Shown: positions 2,834 through 9,911 of the stretch, in pieces
Position numbering within the stretch: the stretch's first letter is position 1
Layout: each line of letters begins with the position of its first letter
DNA from: Chitinispirillum alkaliphilum
GTDB lineage: Bacteria; Fibrobacterota; Chitinivibrionia; Chitinivibrionales; Chitinispirillaceae
NCBI GenBank assembly: GCA_001045525.1
Contig: LDWW01000001.1
Span: 310,001 to 374,000, forward strand
Direction: 5' to 3'
Length of the DNA stretch: 64,000 nucleotides
Notes under the pieces: generated by a model
The model's database searches: none
Told to the model about the DNA's origin: nothing
Seen by the model: only the letters and a program-made list of their open reading frames with translations
Position numbers and translations under genes: made by a program

Positions 2834-3490
2834 TTGACAGGGCTGTCTACAATGCTCAGAAAAGAGTTTAAAAGTTTTGCGGGAAGCGACAGGGGGGTTT
2901 TTGCCGTATACGCAATACTTATCGTGGTATGGAGTTTTCTTCTGGCATCGGGTGATAGTTCTCTTTCCGGAGGACCGTTTCTTTTTATATTCTTCTCTGC
3001 AATAATAACCGCAAATTTTTCCAATACAGTTTTTATCTCCGAACGGATGAACGGGTCACTTGAGATCCTTATAACTTCCGGGCTCTCAAGAAATTCAGTT
3101 TTGTTTGGTAAACTTCTGTTCACAGTGGTTATGACAACGCTTATTGGACTTGCCTGTGCTGCGCTTTCTCTTTTGTGGAGCACCCTCTTGATTGATTATC
3201 ATTTCCTGAGTTTCAGGTTTTCAGACCTTCTTCTCTATACTTCTGCAACAGTTCTCAATGCTGCCGGAAGCGCCTATTTTTCGGTTCGTTTGAGTAGTCC
3301 CCGACTTTTGCATTTTGTTAACCTGTTCATTCTTGGGATCATAATTACACTCTATTCGATAATCTCTTACTTTTACTCACCGGGTGTATGGCTTTTGCTT
3401 CTCCTGCTCTTACTTCCAGCGCTATGGTTTGTGTTGCTTGCTCAAAAGCAATTTGCAGGAGAGAGGATAATCCAGCCTGTTATTCTTTAA
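2834..3490 (+). CDS. ABC-2 type membrane permease
   Basis: This 218-residue hydrophobic protein has about six membrane segments, beginning near residue 24 (VYAILIVVWSFLLA), and the ABC-2 style stretch ISERMNGSLEILITSGLSR, which resembles the coupling helix region of such permeases. I chose the TTG start at 2834 because GGAGG at 2825-2829 lies at proper distance; the first ATG (2852) is too far from it. It follows the ATPase gene by 115 bp and is probably its membrane partner. It is short for this family, so it likely works as a dimer. Its last 11 bp overlap the end of the convergent gene at 3480. Confidence 0.82.
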   Translation: MTGLSTMLRKEFKSFAGSDRGVFAVYAILIVVWSFLLASGDSSLSGGPFLFIFFSAIITANFSNTVFISERMNGSLEILITSGLSRNSVLFGKLLFTVVMTTLIGLACAALSLLWSTLLIDYHFLSFRFSDLLLYTSATVLNAAGSAYFSVRLSSPRLLHFVNLFILGIIITLYSIISYFYSPGVWLLLLLLLLPALWFVLLAQKQFAGERIIQPVIL

Positions 3491-4631
3491 CCTGCCGGGG
3501 TTCTGTGATTGCAGAGGCTATGCGGAGGTTTATGCTGTCAACCTGCACTCTTAAGAAATGTGACGGTTTTCTGATGAAATTGACTACCGATTTGATTGAT
3601 CTCTTTTTTCCAACTCCACTTATTGTTTCAGGAAAAAGCTCCAGAGCAATTATTCCAGCATCGAGAGTGGAACTTTTATGCGGAAATGCTCTTCCGATCA
3701 AACTGAAAAACAGATCATGAAACCTGAATTTCCGGAATATGTGAGTCGCTTCAAGCCAGGCCCATAAACGGAGCCACTGTACTGCAGTTTTCTGCAAACC
3801 CTCAATTGTCAGAAACGGAACAGCATCGAGACTGGTCCCGTAGGAAAAGATGAGATGAATAAATCCTGTAAAGAGGAATATCCAGTAAAATTTCAGCGGA
3901 AATAGAATTGTGCGCCAGTTCCAGTTATCAATTTTCAGGCAGATGATGCTGATAACAGCAACCGCTGAAAGCAAAATCAGGTAATCAGTGGTAAAAAGCA
4001 GAGCAATGCTGACTGTCAACATCAGGGTGGCTGCCAGTTTGTCTCTCAGACATGTTTTGGAAATCTTTCGGTTTATCTTTGGTGTGTCATCATTCTCTGA
4101 AATGTCGGGATCTGGCAGAATTCTTATAAACACCGGAACCAGTGCTCCTACCATACTACCCAGTATCATAGCGGCAATAATCATGAACGGAAGCTGATAA
4201 AAAATCCTGAAATTTCTTGCCATAAAAAGGTACACAACCCCAAGCTGGCCAAGGTTATGAAAGAGTGCGCCAACCATACCAAGTCCCACGGTCCCGAGAT
4301 GGTTTCTCTTACCCAAAATACTCCAGAGAATTCCCATCGCGCAGGTAGAAAGTACTCCTCCCCCCAATCCCAGAGAGAGGGTAAGAAGTGAAAAGCCAAA
4401 ATAGAATCCGGATATCCACACACGTAAAACAGTGAACAGAACAGCATCAGTCGTGCCGTACTTGATTATCCAGATCATGGTTATGACATTAGAGAGCCCG
4501 GGTTTTAGCCAGGGAAGAAATGGCAGACGGGGGAATGCAAGTTCAAGTGCATTGATTGCTATGGCGAGCAGAAGCCAGCTGGTTTTGGTTGCTAACTGCG
4601 AATTTTGTTTCGGCTCAGTAAGTGATTGCAT
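3480..4631 (-). CDS. Gx transporter (heptaprenyl diphosphate synthase component I-like) fused to an EcfT-like membrane domain
   Basis: This is a 383-residue membrane protein. Residues 1-180 match the Gx transporter/Hpre_diP_synt_I family: LPFLPWLKPGLSNVITM, then glycine-rich helices with TLSLGLGGGVLS and GALFHNLGQLGVVYL. These proteins resemble substrate-binding (S) components of ECF transporters and usually sit beside a NusG-domain-II protein, as here. Residues 195-370 look like an EcfT/CbiQ transmembrane component: an LRDKLAATLML opening, four helices, then a GLQKTAVQWLRLWAWLEATH stretch. An S-like and a T-like part in one chain is unusual, and no ECF ATPase gene lies next to it. It overlaps the upstream NusG-II gene by 17 bp, so the two are probably translated together. 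The first half is firm; the EcfT assignment is by pattern only. Confidence 0.72.
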   Translation of the reverse strand: MQSLTEPKQNSQLATKTSWLLLAIAINALELAFPRLPFLPWLKPGLSNVITMIWIIKYGTTDAVLFTVLRVWISGFYFGFSLLTLSLGLGGGVLSTCAMGILWSILGKRNHLGTVGLGMVGALFHNLGQLGVVYLFMARNFRIFYQLPFMIIAAMILGSMVGALVPVFIRILPDPDISENDDTPKINRKISKTCLRDKLAATLMLTVSIALLFTTDYLILLSAVAVISIICLKIDNWNWRTILFPLKFYWIFLFTGFIHLIFSYGTSLDAVPFLTIEGLQKTAVQWLRLWAWLEATHIFRKFRFHDLFFSLIGRAFPHKSSTLDAGIIALELFPETISGVGKKRSIKSVVNFIRKPSHFLRVQVDSINLRIASAITEPRQVKE

Positions 4632-5004
4632 CTATCTGCTCGTTATCTCCGGATGAATGAATCTGAACAAGAAGACGATTGGGGACACATATAAGCTGCT
4701 CGTATGAACGGTGAATGTAACCGGATCGTCTGCAAATCTGGTGAGGACAGTTAACCGAATTTATCCAGGTTTTGCCTTCAGAGATGGATATGCCAACAGG
4801 ACCGTTTTCTCCGTTAACCAAAACATGGGCATCTTCATTGAGCGGATATCGGGCAATGACTCTGTTGTCTCTGAATATGACTACAAGCTCAGGGTGGGAA
4901 GATTGCAGCATGGGCCATATAAGAACCGCTCCCGTAAGGAGAATCGCTGCAACCAGGAAATCCCCGGCACGCAGATGTTTTACATTCTGAAGGTCTGTTT
5001 TCAC
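4615..5004 (-). CDS. NusG domain II-containing protein
   Basis: This 129-residue protein has one N-terminal membrane anchor (about residues 14-32, FLVAAILLTGAVLIWPML), then a small extracytoplasmic beta domain. The features VINGENGP-like (VLVNGENGPVGISI), NCPHQICRRSG and ICVPNRLLVQI are hallmarks of the NusG_II family (PF07009). In established genomes this family pairs with Gx transporters and often with Rnf or ApbE genes. Here the partner overlaps downstream. The start is GTG 5004, with no strong ribosome-binding site. The role is unknown; a redox or substrate-capture function with the transporter is inference. Confidence 0.8.
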   Translation of the reverse strand: MKTDLQNVKHLRAGDFLVAAILLTGAVLIWPMLQSSHPELVVIFRDNRVIARYPLNEDAHVLVNGENGPVGISISEGKTWINSVNCPHQICRRSGYIHRSYEQLICVPNRLLVQIHSSGDNEQIDAITY

Positions 5005-5037
5005 AATCTGTTCACAGGCGAAAATGGGTGGTGTCGC

Positions 5038-5883
5038 TCAATACCTGACTACGGTTTTGGCAAAGTATTTATGATTGCGTACTCCCAGTTTCACAGAAAC
5101 AGGAAGGGAATAATCTTCCCAGCATCTGTATAGTGAGGGTTCACACTGTTTGATTTCCAGAAAGGCAACACGGTAGATACTGGGGCTCTGTTCTGTTTTG
5201 GATATAAAATGCTCGGTGAGAATTTCTGCCTTGTGGCGCACCCGTGTGTTGACCGAATCTGCAGGAAAATGGTATGATTCCAGTTCGTACTTGTTCAGTA
5301 CCCCGTTTCTGTCGAAGTAAAATGTGCCTCTGAAATAGCCTTCACCTATAGGAATGGAGTCGACCCGGTAGAAAAGTCCCCGGTTTTCTATGCTGCTGTG
5401 AGGTATTCTTGATATGAGCCATTCAAAACTTTTTCGGGAGATTCTACCAGGTATGTCATAAAAGTCGATAGGGCTTTGTTCCAGTGCCGCAAGTTCTTCC
5501 ATAACTGTAAGGGAATCCCTTTCTGCAGTTTCTTTCTTTTTGCGAATAGCCTCGATTTTCCCCTCTGTGGTTAATGTGTTTTCGATTTCCCTTTGATGCC
5601 AATTTACGACTTCGCAGGGACGTATATCTTTTGGGTTCAGGTCTGTATCGCTGAGAAATCTCATTTTTATCTCAGGGAAAGAGTCAGAATGAACTATGCT
5701 GTCTACGCTGTTTTTCCATTCAAGTATGACAGCAAGCGGTGTTGAGGTACTGTGACCTGTACAGAGGTGGTAGTCTTCTCTGATTCTCTGCTCGAGAGTG
5801 TCAAGTAACGTGTGCTCAGAATCCAGGTTGTTTGATATGCATACACTTACAGTGAACAGTATGGTAAGAAAAATTTTTGACAT
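5038..5883 (-). CDS. Secreted protein of unknown function
   Basis: I place the start at ATG 5883, giving 281 residues. It begins with a signal sequence (MSKIFLTILFTVSVC), whose cysteine might be a poor lipobox. A longer open frame exists upstream to 6336, but that part lies antisense-free in another frame of the neighbouring gene and reads as low-complexity shadow. The mature chain is rich in charged residues and has a central coiled-coil-like stretch (IEAIRKKKETAERDSLTVMEEL, around residue 125). I do not recognise a domain. It begins 4 bp after the end of the upstream gene, so it belongs to the MoxR-like ATPase operon. Confidence 0.7.
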   Translation of the reverse strand: MSKIFLTILFTVSVCISNNLDSEHTLLDTLEQRIREDYHLCTGHSTSTPLAVILEWKNSVDSIVHSDSFPEIKMRFLSDTDLNPKDIRPCEVVNWHQREIENTLTTEGKIEAIRKKKETAERDSLTVMEELAALEQSPIDFYDIPGRISRKSFEWLISRIPHSSIENRGLFYRVDSIPIGEGYFRGTFYFDRNGVLNKYELESYHFPADSVNTRVRHKAEILTEHFISKTEQSPSIYRVAFLEIKQCEPSLYRCWEDYSLPVSVKLGVRNHKYFAKTVVRY

Positions 5884-5887
5884 TGGT

Positions 5888-7711
5888 TCAATCTCCGATA
5901 AATCCAGAAGCCCAGCTTCTGACCTCTTTGCCGTTGAGGATATGAAATCTTCGCAGCCTCCTGAGGGTTTCGTTTGAGAATGTTGATAGTGGCAGCCACA
6001 CAAGTTTCTTGTTGTGTTTTGCCGCAAGATTGCAGATCTCCAGCCCCGGTCTTTTTGATGCCACATATGCCACTGCTTTCTCTTTGCTGAACAACAGGGC
6101 TCCTGCCGTAAGTTGATATGCGCAGCTTTTGTTTGATCTGCCGAAAAGTTCAAAGGCACTGGGAATAGATCTTGGGGGAAAAAGCAGTGATAAACCCCCG
6201 TATGTGCACCGGGCAATACCTGGTCCCAGTATATCTTCAAATGGGTCTGAGGCAAAAAATGTAAGAGTGGACTCCTGATCGTGCTCTGCATACCAGACTG
6301 TGCGGTGAGGATATCTCTCATCATGATCCTCATCAAATATTATTACCACCGTATCCAACTTACCTCTTACGGGTGGAATCTCCTTTATATAGATATCACC
6401 GGTATGCCAGTTGCGAAGTGTTTCTCTGATGTCTATTCCGTCTTTCACCGAACAGGTGAATTTTTCCGATTTGCAGAAGTTTTCATTTAAAACACGTAAT
6501 GCCTTTTTTCTCAGATGTGTATTGAATGTCTCTATTCTGATATCTTCAGGTTCATGGGAGCACATCCCGTGTGGGTTCCAGGTATAACGGTACTTTCTGT
6601 TTCTTACAAGAGCTGGATCGGGTTTGATTGAAAGTTTTTTCCACTGCAGGTCGATATCACGAAAAAGGTTTATGGCCTCAAAGGTTTGCCTCTCCTGATG
6701 ATTTCCCGAAATTGACAGTGAAACTTTATCTATCCCGGCATTCATCACCATACCCTCTTTTTCAAAAGGAAGGAATGGGTAGTACCGTGCACTTTGCAGA
6801 ATTTTAAGACCATAGGAGTTTCCCCCCACTCCTTTAGCCGCTTCAACTATATCGGGAAGTGACGGGGTAAATCTTCCGTCCGTCACTGTGAGATTGCGAA
6901 GAAATGTGAGAGCGCTTTGGATGCGTACAGGGGAGAGCTGAACGATGGAATCCTCTTCCATGTAGTCGGTACGTGTTTCGCGGAACAGATCTTTAATGAC
7001 CTCTGTAGAATCTATGGGATTGCTGAATAGGTCCAGTCGCTCCATTTCGCTTTTACCTGCAATAAAAGGAAGTTCTCCGAGAGCAAAATAGAGATGGTCG
7101 GGATTAATTATTCTGCTAATGATTTCAGGGGTAAAATCTGTGTCAAACCGGAGATTATATGTTTTTTCCTGATCAAAATGTTTAATAACAGAAGCATATC
7201 TTCGGAAGTGAACCAGTGCCAGAATGTTTTTCTCTGATGCCCTGAGATGGTGAAGCTTGTGAGCGATATGGGTTGAAGCGATATCATCATTGGAGTCGCT
7301 CTGTGCCAGTCCTGCAGCATTAAGGCAGAGAGTTGAGTAGATGTCAAAACCTAAACTTTTCATCGCATACTCATCGGGCAGAGAGCGCAGGGGAGAGGGA
7401 CGGAAAAGTTCGGGGCTTCCGATGCAGTGAAAGGGTATTCTTCTTTGTCGTGCCTGACGGACAGCTTCTACAGCAGCATCGCAGGGGTCAATGGGAAGGT
7501 AATACAACAAATCCTCAAACCCCTTTGCTACAAGAGCAGAAATAATAGGAAGCTTGTCAACAGCTTCGCCGATTTCATTCTGGAAAACAGCTGGTATGTC
7601 TACAGCTACACAGTCAAACTTTTCATTTGAGAAAAGTTCCCGGATATGATGGGCAAAGGCGATCTTTCCATGAAGAATGGGTAGAATCTTTATAGATGGT
7701 GTTAGTTTCAC
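5888..7711 (-). CDS. Unknown 607-residue protein partnered with a MoxR-like ATPase
   Basis: I chose GTG 7711 as start: it lies 1 bp after the ATPase stop and has AGAGGA about 8 bases upstream, while the earlier ATG would overlap the ATPase gene. I do not recognise the family with certainty. The N-terminal 220 residues have a pattern seen in the TraB/GumN-EreA/ChaN fold superfamily: an LPILHG opening, a DCVAVDIP strand, RIPFHCIGSPE, and later LALVHFRRYASVI. This recalls the DUF5682-type partners of MoxR ATPases, but that is an inference from motifs. The C-terminal half (VVIIFDEDHDERYPHRTVWY and after) is unrecognised. There is no signal peptide or membrane segment, so it is probably cytoplasmic and works with the ATPase. 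Confidence 0.72.
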   Translation of the reverse strand: MKLTPSIKILPILHGKIAFAHHIRELFSNEKFDCVAVDIPAVFQNEIGEAVDKLPIISALVAKGFEDLLYYLPIDPCDAAVEAVRQARQRRIPFHCIGSPELFRPSPLRSLPDEYAMKSLGFDIYSTLCLNAAGLAQSDSNDDIASTHIAHKLHHLRASEKNILALVHFRRYASVIKHFDQEKTYNLRFDTDFTPEIISRIINPDHLYFALGELPFIAGKSEMERLDLFSNPIDSTEVIKDLFRETRTDYMEEDSIVQLSPVRIQSALTFLRNLTVTDGRFTPSLPDIVEAAKGVGGNSYGLKILQSARYYPFLPFEKEGMVMNAGIDKVSLSISGNHQERQTFEAINLFRDIDLQWKKLSIKPDPALVRNRKYRYTWNPHGMCSHEPEDIRIETFNTHLRKKALRVLNENFCKSEKFTCSVKDGIDIRETLRNWHTGDIYIKEIPPVRGKLDTVVIIFDEDHDERYPHRTVWYAEHDQESTLTFFASDPFEDILGPGIARCTYGGLSLLFPPRSIPSAFELFGRSNKSCAYQLTAGALLFSKEKAVAYVASKRPGLEICNLAAKHNKKLVWLPLSTFSNETLRRLRRFHILNGKEVRSWASGFIGD

Positions 7712-7712
7712 A

Positions 7713-8636
7713 TCAGAAATCCTCTTGTGAATCCGGGTTAAGATCGTCCTCATCGGGAAAGAACAGGTCGCCAAGATTCATGGCCGGGAGGTGATCATTT
7801 TTTCTCCGCTCTGCAAGTTTTTCCAGGTCAAGGGCCTCTTCTCCAAGAATCTGGGCTAAAGCACTTCTGAAAAGAGACTCTGTATCTGCAGTCTGGTCAC
7901 TTTGGCGCAGCTTCAATGTGTACCGCATGGTGTTGATTCCATCACGTATGGAGTAGGGCAGATCCAGTTTATGCGCAGACTGAAGATATTCAACGCACAT
8001 CTCCAGAACTTCTTCGCTGCTGAATGGAATATTATAGGATAGAATCCTAAGCTCATCCTGGCGGTTTGGGAACGGGATCTGAATACCCGGCTGCAGTCTT
8101 GACATGATATAGTCGGGGATTTCAAATGTAGAGGAGTCTTCATTCATGGTGATCGCTGCCCTGAAATCCCTGTGTGCAGATATGGTTATCCCAGCCACAA
8201 GGGATTCTGCTGTTCGGCGATGGTCAAAAAGACCAGCCAGTGAAGCCCAGGACTTTTCAGACATCCTGTTTCCTTCGTCAAGAATAGCAACGCCTCCGGT
8301 TAATGCTGCACTCAACAACGGACTTGCATGATAGGAAATATGTCCCTGATCCGAAAGTACCGGGGACACAAGAAGATCTTCCGGGCGTGTATCGGATGTA
8401 CACTGCATTATGTATACCGGTTTCTGAAGCTGTTGGGCGGCAGCCATGGCAAGTGTTGTTTTTCCAATACCGGGATGACCGATTATACGCGGCGTCAAAG
8501 GAAGATCATTTTGGTCGATCACAAGCCAGCAGGCAAGCAATTGCCTTAATGGCTCACTCTGACCTATCCACTCCACAGTCGATGCCACTGGATGAGAGAG
8601 CAGTAGTTTTACATTGTCAATGGTTATGTGTTCCAT
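7713..8636 (-). CDS. MoxR-like AAA+ ATPase
   Basis: This 307-residue AAA+ protein has Walker A GHPGIGKTT at 53-61, Walker B GGVAILDEGNR at about 114-124, and a sensor-1 strand AAITMNED near 160, followed by a PDYIMSRLQPG stretch with a candidate arginine finger. This is the AAA_5/MoxR layout; such ATPases act as remodelling chaperones, usually with a VWA-domain partner. No VWA gene is present here. Instead the next gene encodes an unknown protein starting 1 bp later. It is the first gene of a five-gene minus-strand operon. The C-terminal tail is acidic (FFPDEDDLNPDSQEDF). Confidence 0.88.
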   Translation of the reverse strand: MEHITIDNVKLLLSHPVASTVEWIGQSEPLRQLLACWLVIDQNDLPLTPRIIGHPGIGKTTLAMAAAQQLQKPVYIMQCTSDTRPEDLLVSPVLSDQGHISYHASPLLSAALTGGVAILDEGNRMSEKSWASLAGLFDHRRTAESLVAGITISAHRDFRAAITMNEDSSTFEIPDYIMSRLQPGIQIPFPNRQDELRILSYNIPFSSEEVLEMCVEYLQSAHKLDLPYSIRDGINTMRYTLKLRQSDQTADTESLFRSALAQILGEEALDLEKLAERRKNDHLPAMNLGDLFFPDEDDLNPDSQEDF

Positions 8637-8877: not shown

Positions 8878-9840
8878 TTATTTGAACAGATCCGGATCAT
8901 CGCGCTCTTCCCATAAAAATTTTGCCCTGTCATTCCATCTGTCTATCGCCGTGGTGTTTAGTTTGGGATTTTCTCTCATCTCTTCCAGTCTGGTGTTTTT
9001 GAGATTGGTAAAAACGCCAATGTAGGAGTGGGCCTTTTTAGACTCGTTCAACCGTAGACAGAGTGCTACAATAAGGTAAATCGTTTGCAGCTCCAACTCT
9101 TCTGAAGGGCAGTTTGACGTCCTGAACGCTTCACCAAAGTAACCCAATGCCTCTTTCAGTATGTCGGTATCATCGATATGGTTGTCCTGCATTATCTTGG
9201 CAACTCTGAGTGCATAGGAGCCGAGTTTGAAATATGAGTAGGGTTGCTCATGCCAGCTTTCAGCTTTGGCCCTTGACATGGCAAGTTTATAACTGTCGAT
9301 AGATGCTTCGAAGTTACGTGGTCTGTTGAAGTAACTTGTAAAATCGCTCACCGGGCTAAGCTGCGCTTTTCTTTCACCGGTTCGTTCCTGTATGGACATG
9401 ATTATATGGCTTGATAGCTGGCTTTTTACTTCGCCTGGCCCTGAGAGCTGCTTCTTTATGAAATCTTTTTTGTCGGGAGATGCAAAAAGACATCTGGGGC
9501 ATACTGTTACCGCTAAGAGTGAGTAGTCAACCGTCTCGTAATTCATAGTTCCTTCATAGGAGGGAACAAGGAAGCGGTTTTGGACTACCTGTTGAGTTTT
9601 GGCGCGAAGCTCATATCCAGTTATCTTGTCCTGATTGCAGACTGGACATTTAACTGTGATTTCATAGATCGGGTCGTTTTCTCTGTTGGGTAAGCTGTCA
9701 CTGGCTCTGTTCTTTTTTACCGCCTTGATTTTTTTTATATCTATTACAGGACCATACCGTCGCAGGTAGTCATTGACCATGTTAGGGTCATTTAGCAGAG
9801 CCAGAAGTCTTCTTTTCACTTCCACAACATCAATACTCAT
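8878..9840 (-). CDS. DUF2225 family protein (zinc-ribbon plus TPR-like)
   Basis: The start is ATG 9840, preceded by GGAGGGG eight bases upstream; the open frame reaches further but without a ribosome site. The 320-residue protein carries two CxxC pairs (KCPVCN near residue 70 and VCPRCLF near 117) that could bind a metal, then helical TPR-like repeats (SYFKLGSYALRVAKIM, ILKEALGYFGEAFRT). This is the DUF2225 layout (PF09986), found in Firmicutes, spirochaetes and Fibrobacterota, with no known function. It has its own promoter, points away from rex, and shares the upstream region with two Rex operators, so Rex control is possible but unproven. Confidence 0.85.
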   Translation of the reverse strand: MSIDVVEVKRRLLALLNDPNMVNDYLRRYGPVIDIKKIKAVKKNRASDSLPNRENDPIYEITVKCPVCNQDKITGYELRAKTQQVVQNRFLVPSYEGTMNYETVDYSLLAVTVCPRCLFASPDKKDFIKKQLSGPGEVKSQLSSHIIMSIQERTGERKAQLSPVSDFTSYFNRPRNFEASIDSYKLAMSRAKAESWHEQPYSYFKLGSYALRVAKIMQDNHIDDTDILKEALGYFGEAFRTSNCPSEELELQTIYLIVALCLRLNESKKAHSYIGVFTNLKNTRLEEMRENPKLNTTAIDRWNDRAKFLWEERDDPDLFK

Positions 9841-9882
9841 ATGGCAAACCCCTCCTGGGAGACTGAGACACGGATAAGTTTT

Positions 9883-9911
9883 ATTATGCACTAAAAAGGT
9901 GATACAGTCAA
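9883..9911 (-). promoter_or_regulatory. Sigma70-type promoter for the DUF2225 gene
   Basis: On the minus strand TTGACT (9911-9906) and CATAAT (9888-9883) are separated by exactly 17 bp, about 40 bp upstream of the ATG at 9840. Confidence 0.75.

Follow-up and report, generated by a model that had tools for sequence, protein, structure and literature searches.

MoxR ATPases are generally regarded as working together with a VWA cofactor, and both CbbQ–CbbO and NorQ–NorD follow this arrangement of an ATPase plus a cofactor. In Escherichia coli, the MoxR gene yehL stands in a row with yehM (DUF5682), yehP (VWA) and yehQ (SWIM), and our literature searches found no study of DUF5682/YehM. In the sections of PMC3893208 that we consulted, MoxR proteins are described as chaperone-like and acting with VWA cofactors, RavA and ViaA are presented as an ATPase with its dedicated cofactor, both genes lying in one operon, and the encoding of the VWA cofactor close to MoxR is treated as a general but not absolute rule. 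The sections consulted of PMC7159879 portray MoxR proteins as switches in vWA-centred conflict systems. Here, we analysed a stretch of 64,000 nucleotides of Chitinispirillum alkaliphilum (hereafter the window), part of contig C1 of a 4.43-Mb draft genome, in which a MoxR-type AAA+ ATPase (P0002) is encoded directly upstream of a 607-residue protein (P0001, hereafter the partner) that belongs to no curated family. We found that the ATPase and the partner form a dedicated pair, a conclusion that is well supported by their linkage and co-occurrence across genomes. The pair is not mentioned in the sections that we consulted of PMC10910872, PMC7159879, PMC11834572 and PMC3893208.

Conservation, linkage and co-occurrence of the pair

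The ATPase gene (307 residues, ATG start) spans 8636–7713 on the minus strand. Its stop ends at 7713 and the GTG start of the partner gene (7711–5888) lies at 7711, leaving a gap of 1 bp; a third gene begins 4 bp past the partner stop, and all three are on the minus strand. Coordinates and gaps agree with a preliminary description of the window, and so does its call of a MoxR-like ATPase. P0002 scored above the curated Pfam cut-offs for AAA_5 (1.2e-17; 64.7 bits against 22) and AAA_3 (31.8 bits against 27), and its Walker A (G53–T60) and Walker B (D120–E121) motifs are intact, their residues being kept in at least 97% of 70 homologues. N165 and S179–R180, which we take to be candidates for sensor 1 and the Arg finger, are likewise kept in at least 97% of these homologues. 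The best NCBIfam match was GvpN, at 33.9 bits far below the cut-off of 266.8. The own genome has 26 AAA_5 matches, eight of which were compared as loci, P0002 among them. Since P0002 is about 48–79% identical to orthologues adjoining partner genes, whereas the closest of the seven other loci reaches 26%, it represents, as judged from these identities, a separate and dedicated MoxR lineage. No second match to P0002 at E ≤ 1e-20 was found in its own genome.

In the case of the partner, searches gave no match in Pfam, NCBIfam or PADLOC at E ≤ 1, none in PHROGs at E ≤ 0.1, and only two chance-level matches among PDB sequences (E 1.1 and 1.6); the partner profile found nothing there. It is nevertheless a real gene, since 30 aligned relatives are kept at 34–73% identity. 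Scanning genome contigs, we confirmed 535 relatives and used the best 80 for the locus analyses; according to record names, these 80 come from Fibrobacterota, Nitrospinota, Nitrospirota, Planctomycetota, Gemmatimonadota, Latescibacterota and Omnitrophota. The only relative detected on plasmids adds Chlamydiota as an eighth phylum: in plasmid pS13 of Neochlamydia sp. S13 (L185, 4090–6803), a partner gene (27% identity), annotated as 'hypothetical protein', starts 5 bp after the gene of an AAA ATPase with 56% identity to P0002. On viral contigs, eight stretches fitted a partner pattern and none was confirmed as a relative. Alignments of partners from different phyla cover the whole protein, and a genome usually has a single copy. 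Two partner loci (L112 and L118) come from one Nitrospinaceae assembly, and no MoxR gene clustered at the locus of a second, partial copy in genome G154 (L066).

Presence of the two genes coincided closely. Among 167 Fibrobacterota genomes, the partner was found in 42, a P0002-type MoxR in 43 and both in 42; a 43rd partner match (G053; 54 residues, E 8e-4) was not strong and was excluded from the count. With a profile of 33 members, the partner was matched in 23 of 148 Nitrospirota genomes and in 18 of 119 Planctomycetota genomes, where a 19th match (G292) was dropped as it overlapped the N-terminal end of a DUF5682 gene. In the Planctomycetota set, a P0002-type MoxR was present in 19 genomes and both genes in 18. 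Thus, all partner genomes counted in the two phyla carry the MoxR gene (42/42 and 18/18), which strongly supports the functional pairing that the preliminary description had proposed. Because the genomes are related, the Fisher tests of this co-occurrence (8e-39 in Fibrobacterota and 2e-20 in Planctomycetota) are descriptive. Pairwise distances of ATPase and partner were correlated with r = 0.96 over 70 loci (the largest of 500 permutations gave 0.13) and with r = 0.95 over 40 distant loci, as expected under co-inheritance.

At the level of gene order, MoxR lies less than 300 bp upstream of the partner in 73 of the 80 loci and is found nearby in three more, at 327, 1477 and 3180 bp. It is not close in the remaining four, and three of those genomes carry it elsewhere: about 7.8 kb upstream on the same contig (G183), on another contig (G303), and as a partial gene at a contig end (G168). 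In Planctomycetota, 11 of the 18 pairs are adjacent, with 23 to 202 bp separating the two matches, and seven are unlinked. Four of these seven have both genes on one contig as numbered, separated by 0.39 Mb (G232), 2.6 Mb (G208), 3.0 Mb (G289) and 4.5 Mb (G253), and in the other three (G255, G271 and G273) the pair is split over different contigs of drafts. That the pair is kept where its genes are unlinked is the strongest sign of joint function, with the reservation that the unlinked genomes may represent one lineage. In Tautonia sociabilis, an open reading frame (ORF) of 211 residues without a Pfam match lies between ATPase and partner (L131, 7292–7924).

In agreement with the preliminary description, no VWA gene adjoins the pair in the window. 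The third gene comes next and is followed by genes that a Pfam scan assigned to NusG_II and Hpre_diP_synt_I; the five VWA_2 matches of the own genome lie on contigs C2, C3, C7 and C20, with none on C1. We extended this search to 12 genomes with VWA_2 (PF13519), the VWA model that was searched genome-wide. None of the 12 has a VWA_2 gene within 10 kb of the pair, the nearest being about 13.3 kb (G179) and 13.7 kb (G169) away, and all 12 have VWA_2 genes elsewhere.

The N-terminal half of the partner and its relation to DUF5682

The N-terminal half of the partner (residues 1–309; 6785..7711, minus strand) was delimited by hhalign, VIA-align and an AlphaFold2 model. Residues 3–297 aligned to a DUF5682 profile of eight sequences, including E. 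coli YehM, with an hhalign probability of 97 and E 9.1e-11, and the partner profile matched the N-terminal end of a DUF5682 gene at E 9.9e-6. By profile comparison, this half is a remote homologue of the N-terminal half of DUF5682 (YehM). The preliminary description had presented the partner as unknown; this stands as far as curated families are concerned, but it does not hold for the N-terminal half. The partner did not turn out to belong to a known family with a settled and unrelated function. P0001 gave no match at E ≤ 1 to the DUF5682 hidden Markov model (HMM; PF18934) and thus stays below the Pfam cut-off; among 33 members of the partner family, one was matched, with a best E of 0.024.

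We then compared signature residues. H11, E35 and H202 of YehM are invariant in all eight aligned DUF5682 sequences. Their equivalents in the partner were read from hhalign, the third position being less certain. The first, H14, is His in 32 of 33 members, whereas position 38, equivalent to E35, is acidic in 8 of 33, and position 171, equivalent to H202, is His in 4 of 33 (the nearby position 168 is His in 9 of 33). On this alignment, the partner family has kept one of the three DUF5682 signature residues and lost the other two, and for this reason the N-terminal half would no longer hold a DUF5682-type active site, if DUF5682 has one.

The AlphaFold2 model of the partner has a mean predicted local distance difference test (pLDDT) score of 82.7 and lays out the N-terminal half as an EreA/ChaN-like domain (residues ~1–183) and a helical region (~204–308). 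VIA-align matched it, mainly over residues 1–186, to HopBA1 (5t09; Z 7.0, 137 aligned, 3.4 Å), ChaN (2g5g; Z 6.6, 147 aligned, 4.4 Å) and the erythromycin esterase EreC (6xcs; Z 5.6, 152 aligned, 5.0 Å), the whole group including Q81BN2 covering Z 5.3–7.0 over 137–152 residues. The top rows were taken by a Tetrahymena complex IV subunit (Z 8.8–9.5). As the best Z is typically 7–8 for models without a clear match, the EreA/ChaN-like scores are middling, and Foldseek against the PDB gave nothing for the full-length model at E ≤ 0.001. The assignment therefore rests on these scores and on the DUF5682 homology together. With both considered, the N-terminal half is probably EreA/ChaN-like in fold, as the preliminary description had suggested from its motifs.

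This homology raises the question of whether the pair is a reduced and diverged form of YehL–YehM–YehP–YehQ that does the same job, with the VWA and SWIM components supplied elsewhere or lost. The homologous N-terminal halves, the position of both YehM and the window partner directly downstream of a MoxR gene, and the VWA_2 genes found elsewhere in all 12 genomes are in line with such an origin. However, P0002 and YehL gave no significant BLASTP match, the C-terminal half appears unrelated to DUF5682, and DUF5682 is found in none of the 167 Fibrobacterota genomes. Moreover, five genomes (G185, G208, G255, G273 and G178) carry both partner and DUF5682, which are therefore two separate, parallel systems. 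Taken together, we consider a derivation from YehLMPQ rather unlikely.

In five Planctomycetota loci (L155, L158, L161, L162 and L163), DUF5682 matches fall within open frames that, at 1137 to 1296 codons, exceed the 727-position model in length. At least L158 has a normal 786-amino-acid frame from a start codon, so the long stretches may be open frames only.

The C-terminal half of the partner and a proposed mechanism

The C-terminal half (residues 310–607; 5888..6784, minus strand) belongs to no known family and holds the most conserved stretch of the protein. It had been described as unrecognised, and we likewise found no Pfam match; against the DUF5682 profile, the hhalign probability was 0.4, and by this comparison it is not DUF5682. 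Of six blocks, residues 381–450 are the best conserved, with a mean majority fraction of 0.75 versus 0.50 for residues 1–200. C384, D390, E394, D424, D427, R429, W473, E476, H477, E480, S481, T482, Y504, R587, H590 and R598 are invariant in all 33 family members.

Modelled alone from 53 sequences, this half reached a pLDDT of 86.5 and shows a run of strands followed by alternating helices and strands, a DSSP order that, as order alone, fits an RNase H-like fold. Most of the 50 VIA-align rows belong to proteins that we take to be RNase H-like (RuvX, RNase H, integrase, PIWI, Prp8 and the creatinase N-domain), with the same few proteins often repeated. The Foldseek list is headed by chains of short-Argonaute systems at E 0.12 or worse, and the residue after the first strand is acidic throughout the family (D in 25 and E in 8 of 33). 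As a whole, the model gives only a hint that the C-terminal half is RNase H-like. Predicted viral structures yielded nothing usable for it; absence from such lists excludes nothing. We also considered a hidden VWA domain in this half. The DxSxS-type motif is a hallmark of VWA domains; no conserved motif of this type was seen in an alignment inspected by eye, the order of strands and helices does not point to one, and the candidate was rejected.

Based on these observations, we propose, giving it an even chance of being right, that ATPase and partner together make up an AAA+ machine of two obligate components. In it, the DUF5682-related partner would take the place of the VWA cofactor and provide the working site. 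The MoxR-type ATPase, presumably as a hexamer, would contact the partner directly and spend ATP to remodel or reset it, or a client that it holds. Because of the loss of two signature residues, the EreA/ChaN-like N-terminal half would most likely serve as a docking or scaffold domain. The C-terminal half, perhaps RNase H-like, would be the working site, either catalytic or binding a metal, a nucleotide or a nucleic acid, so that the partner would be docking factor and effector in one. A chaperone or maturation role, which the preliminary description considered, is the customary interpretation of MoxR pairs and may hold here as well. Going a step further, the C-terminal half may represent a catalytic domain of a new kind. 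The pair would then form a class of MoxR systems that does without VWA, is present in eight phyla by record names, and turns this enzyme on or resets it; we put this forward tentatively, as a possibility that falls short of an even chance.

Several observations weigh against the two-component model. Genome G304 has the partner without a detected MoxR gene, its contig (L106) ending 180 bp upstream of the partner, and the converse, MoxR without partner, occurs in G023 (L180, 1490–2434, with no trace of the partner) and G191 (C151:8865–9770). The MoxR gene of G273 was seen as two pieces on two contigs, and the second partial copy of the partner in G154 (G154:C48:41556–42191) is interrupted by one internal TGA stop. 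Furthermore, shared vertical inheritance can explain the distance correlation and a large part of the co-occurrence, the genomes being related and often drafts. Regarding structure, the full-length model drops below a pLDDT of 50 at residues 368–378, 380–382, 413–428 and 438–448, partly in the conserved stretch, although the same segments do not in the model of the C-terminal half alone. Foldseek against the PDB found nothing for the C-terminal half at E ≤ 0.001, and its best VIA-align score (Z 4.8, 114 aligned, 4.4 Å) is weak and below the level typical of unmatched models. Finally, the second canonical acid of RNase H-like nucleases is not evident, which leaves the catalytic set incomplete.

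The same data bear on a more specific idea, an AAA+-driven nucleic-acid enzyme of McrBC-like plan in which an RNase H-like C-terminal half would cut or bind and the MoxR ring would load or activate it. It would account for the prevalence of presumed RNase H-like proteins among the VIA-align rows, repeats included, for the short-Argonaute system chains leading the Foldseek list and for the acid following the first strand. Against it, the fold scores are all weak and the second acid is not evident. In addition, the partner is usually found once per genome, with no confirmed viral relative and no PADLOC match, which is unlike most defence nucleases. We regard this idea as unlikely.

Neighbouring genes and comparison with described systems

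Besides the pair itself, ORF clustering of 100 loci (L049–L068 and L069–L148, partly from the same genomes) revealed no gene common to phyla among the 45 widest clusters. The cross-phylum clusters were the pair and ORFs overlapping it, judged from one representative each, and the others were confined to one lineage or reached few loci beyond. A Pfam scan of 93 of 110 neighbour ORFs, from 31 of the 80 loci, showed no family in more than four members among the first 25 of 101 families. The 17 unscanned ORFs were homologues of the third gene and of NusG_II, one upstream ORF of L069, the ORFs from L120 and L106, and a handful of shorter ones. Upstream of the pair, the window has a DUF2225 gene (8878–9891, minus strand), a family also found in 4 of the 93 scanned ORFs.

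The third gene (P0003; 281 residues, ATG start; 5883–5038, minus strand) encodes a protein with a hydrophobic N-terminus that is probably secreted and, judging by position, would be cotranscribed with the pair. Neither P0003 nor four homologues fell into a Pfam family. The run of third gene, NusG_II and Hpre_diP_synt_I (3480–5883, minus strand) is found again after the pair at several loci of Chitinispirillia. P0003 was detected in 15 of 21 genomes (the own genome and near relatives) and, of the 80 loci, at none outside the window's own group; for this reason it is best described as a lineage-specific accessory outside the cross-phylum module, and the inclusion of a secreted protein in the system, as in the preliminary description, could not be upheld. 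The distribution of these genes also makes it very improbable that the pair acts as a chaperone in the maturation of secreted or membrane proteins whose genes lie downstream (third gene, NusG_II and Hpre_diP_synt_I). The tight spacing in the window and the similar gene order in several Chitinispirillia loci would fit such a role, but the third gene was not found at the loci of other phyla, where MurJ, LigA, aminotransferases and an amidohydrolase are among the genes next downstream.

A MoxR lineage kept with a non-VWA partner across phyla, even when unlinked, offers a simple system of one ATPase and one partner in which to find the target of the ATPase. It also links DUF5682/YehM to a second MoxR context, suggesting that it is the EreA/ChaN-like half that is associated with MoxR.

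Compared with described systems, the pair resembles YehL–YehM–YehP–YehQ in that a MoxR gene directly precedes the gene of a protein whose N-terminal half is homologous. In contrast to that system, the C-terminal half is different, no VWA or SWIM gene follows, the partner is below the DUF5682 HMM cut-off with two of three signature residues lost, and the MoxR protein is not closely related to YehL. CbbQ and NorQ, together with midasin, are the closest solved relatives of P0002 by sequence in the PDB. CbbQ–CbbO and NorQ–NorD, however, combine a MoxR protein of the CGN group with a VWA cofactor, whereas the window partner has no VWA match, and no Rubisco or nitric oxide reductase gene was seen adjacent. 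With the VMAP, iSTAND and FtsH MoxR–vWA ternary conflict systems, as far as they are set out in the sections consulted of PMC7159879, the pair shares a MoxR protein accompanied by a further conserved protein; those systems have a vWA component and variable effector domains, whereas the pair has no nearby VWA_2 match and its partner can be aligned over its full length between phyla. RavA–ViaA shares with the window the dedicated pairing of one ATPase with one partner; ViaA, however, is a VWA protein and the window partner is not.

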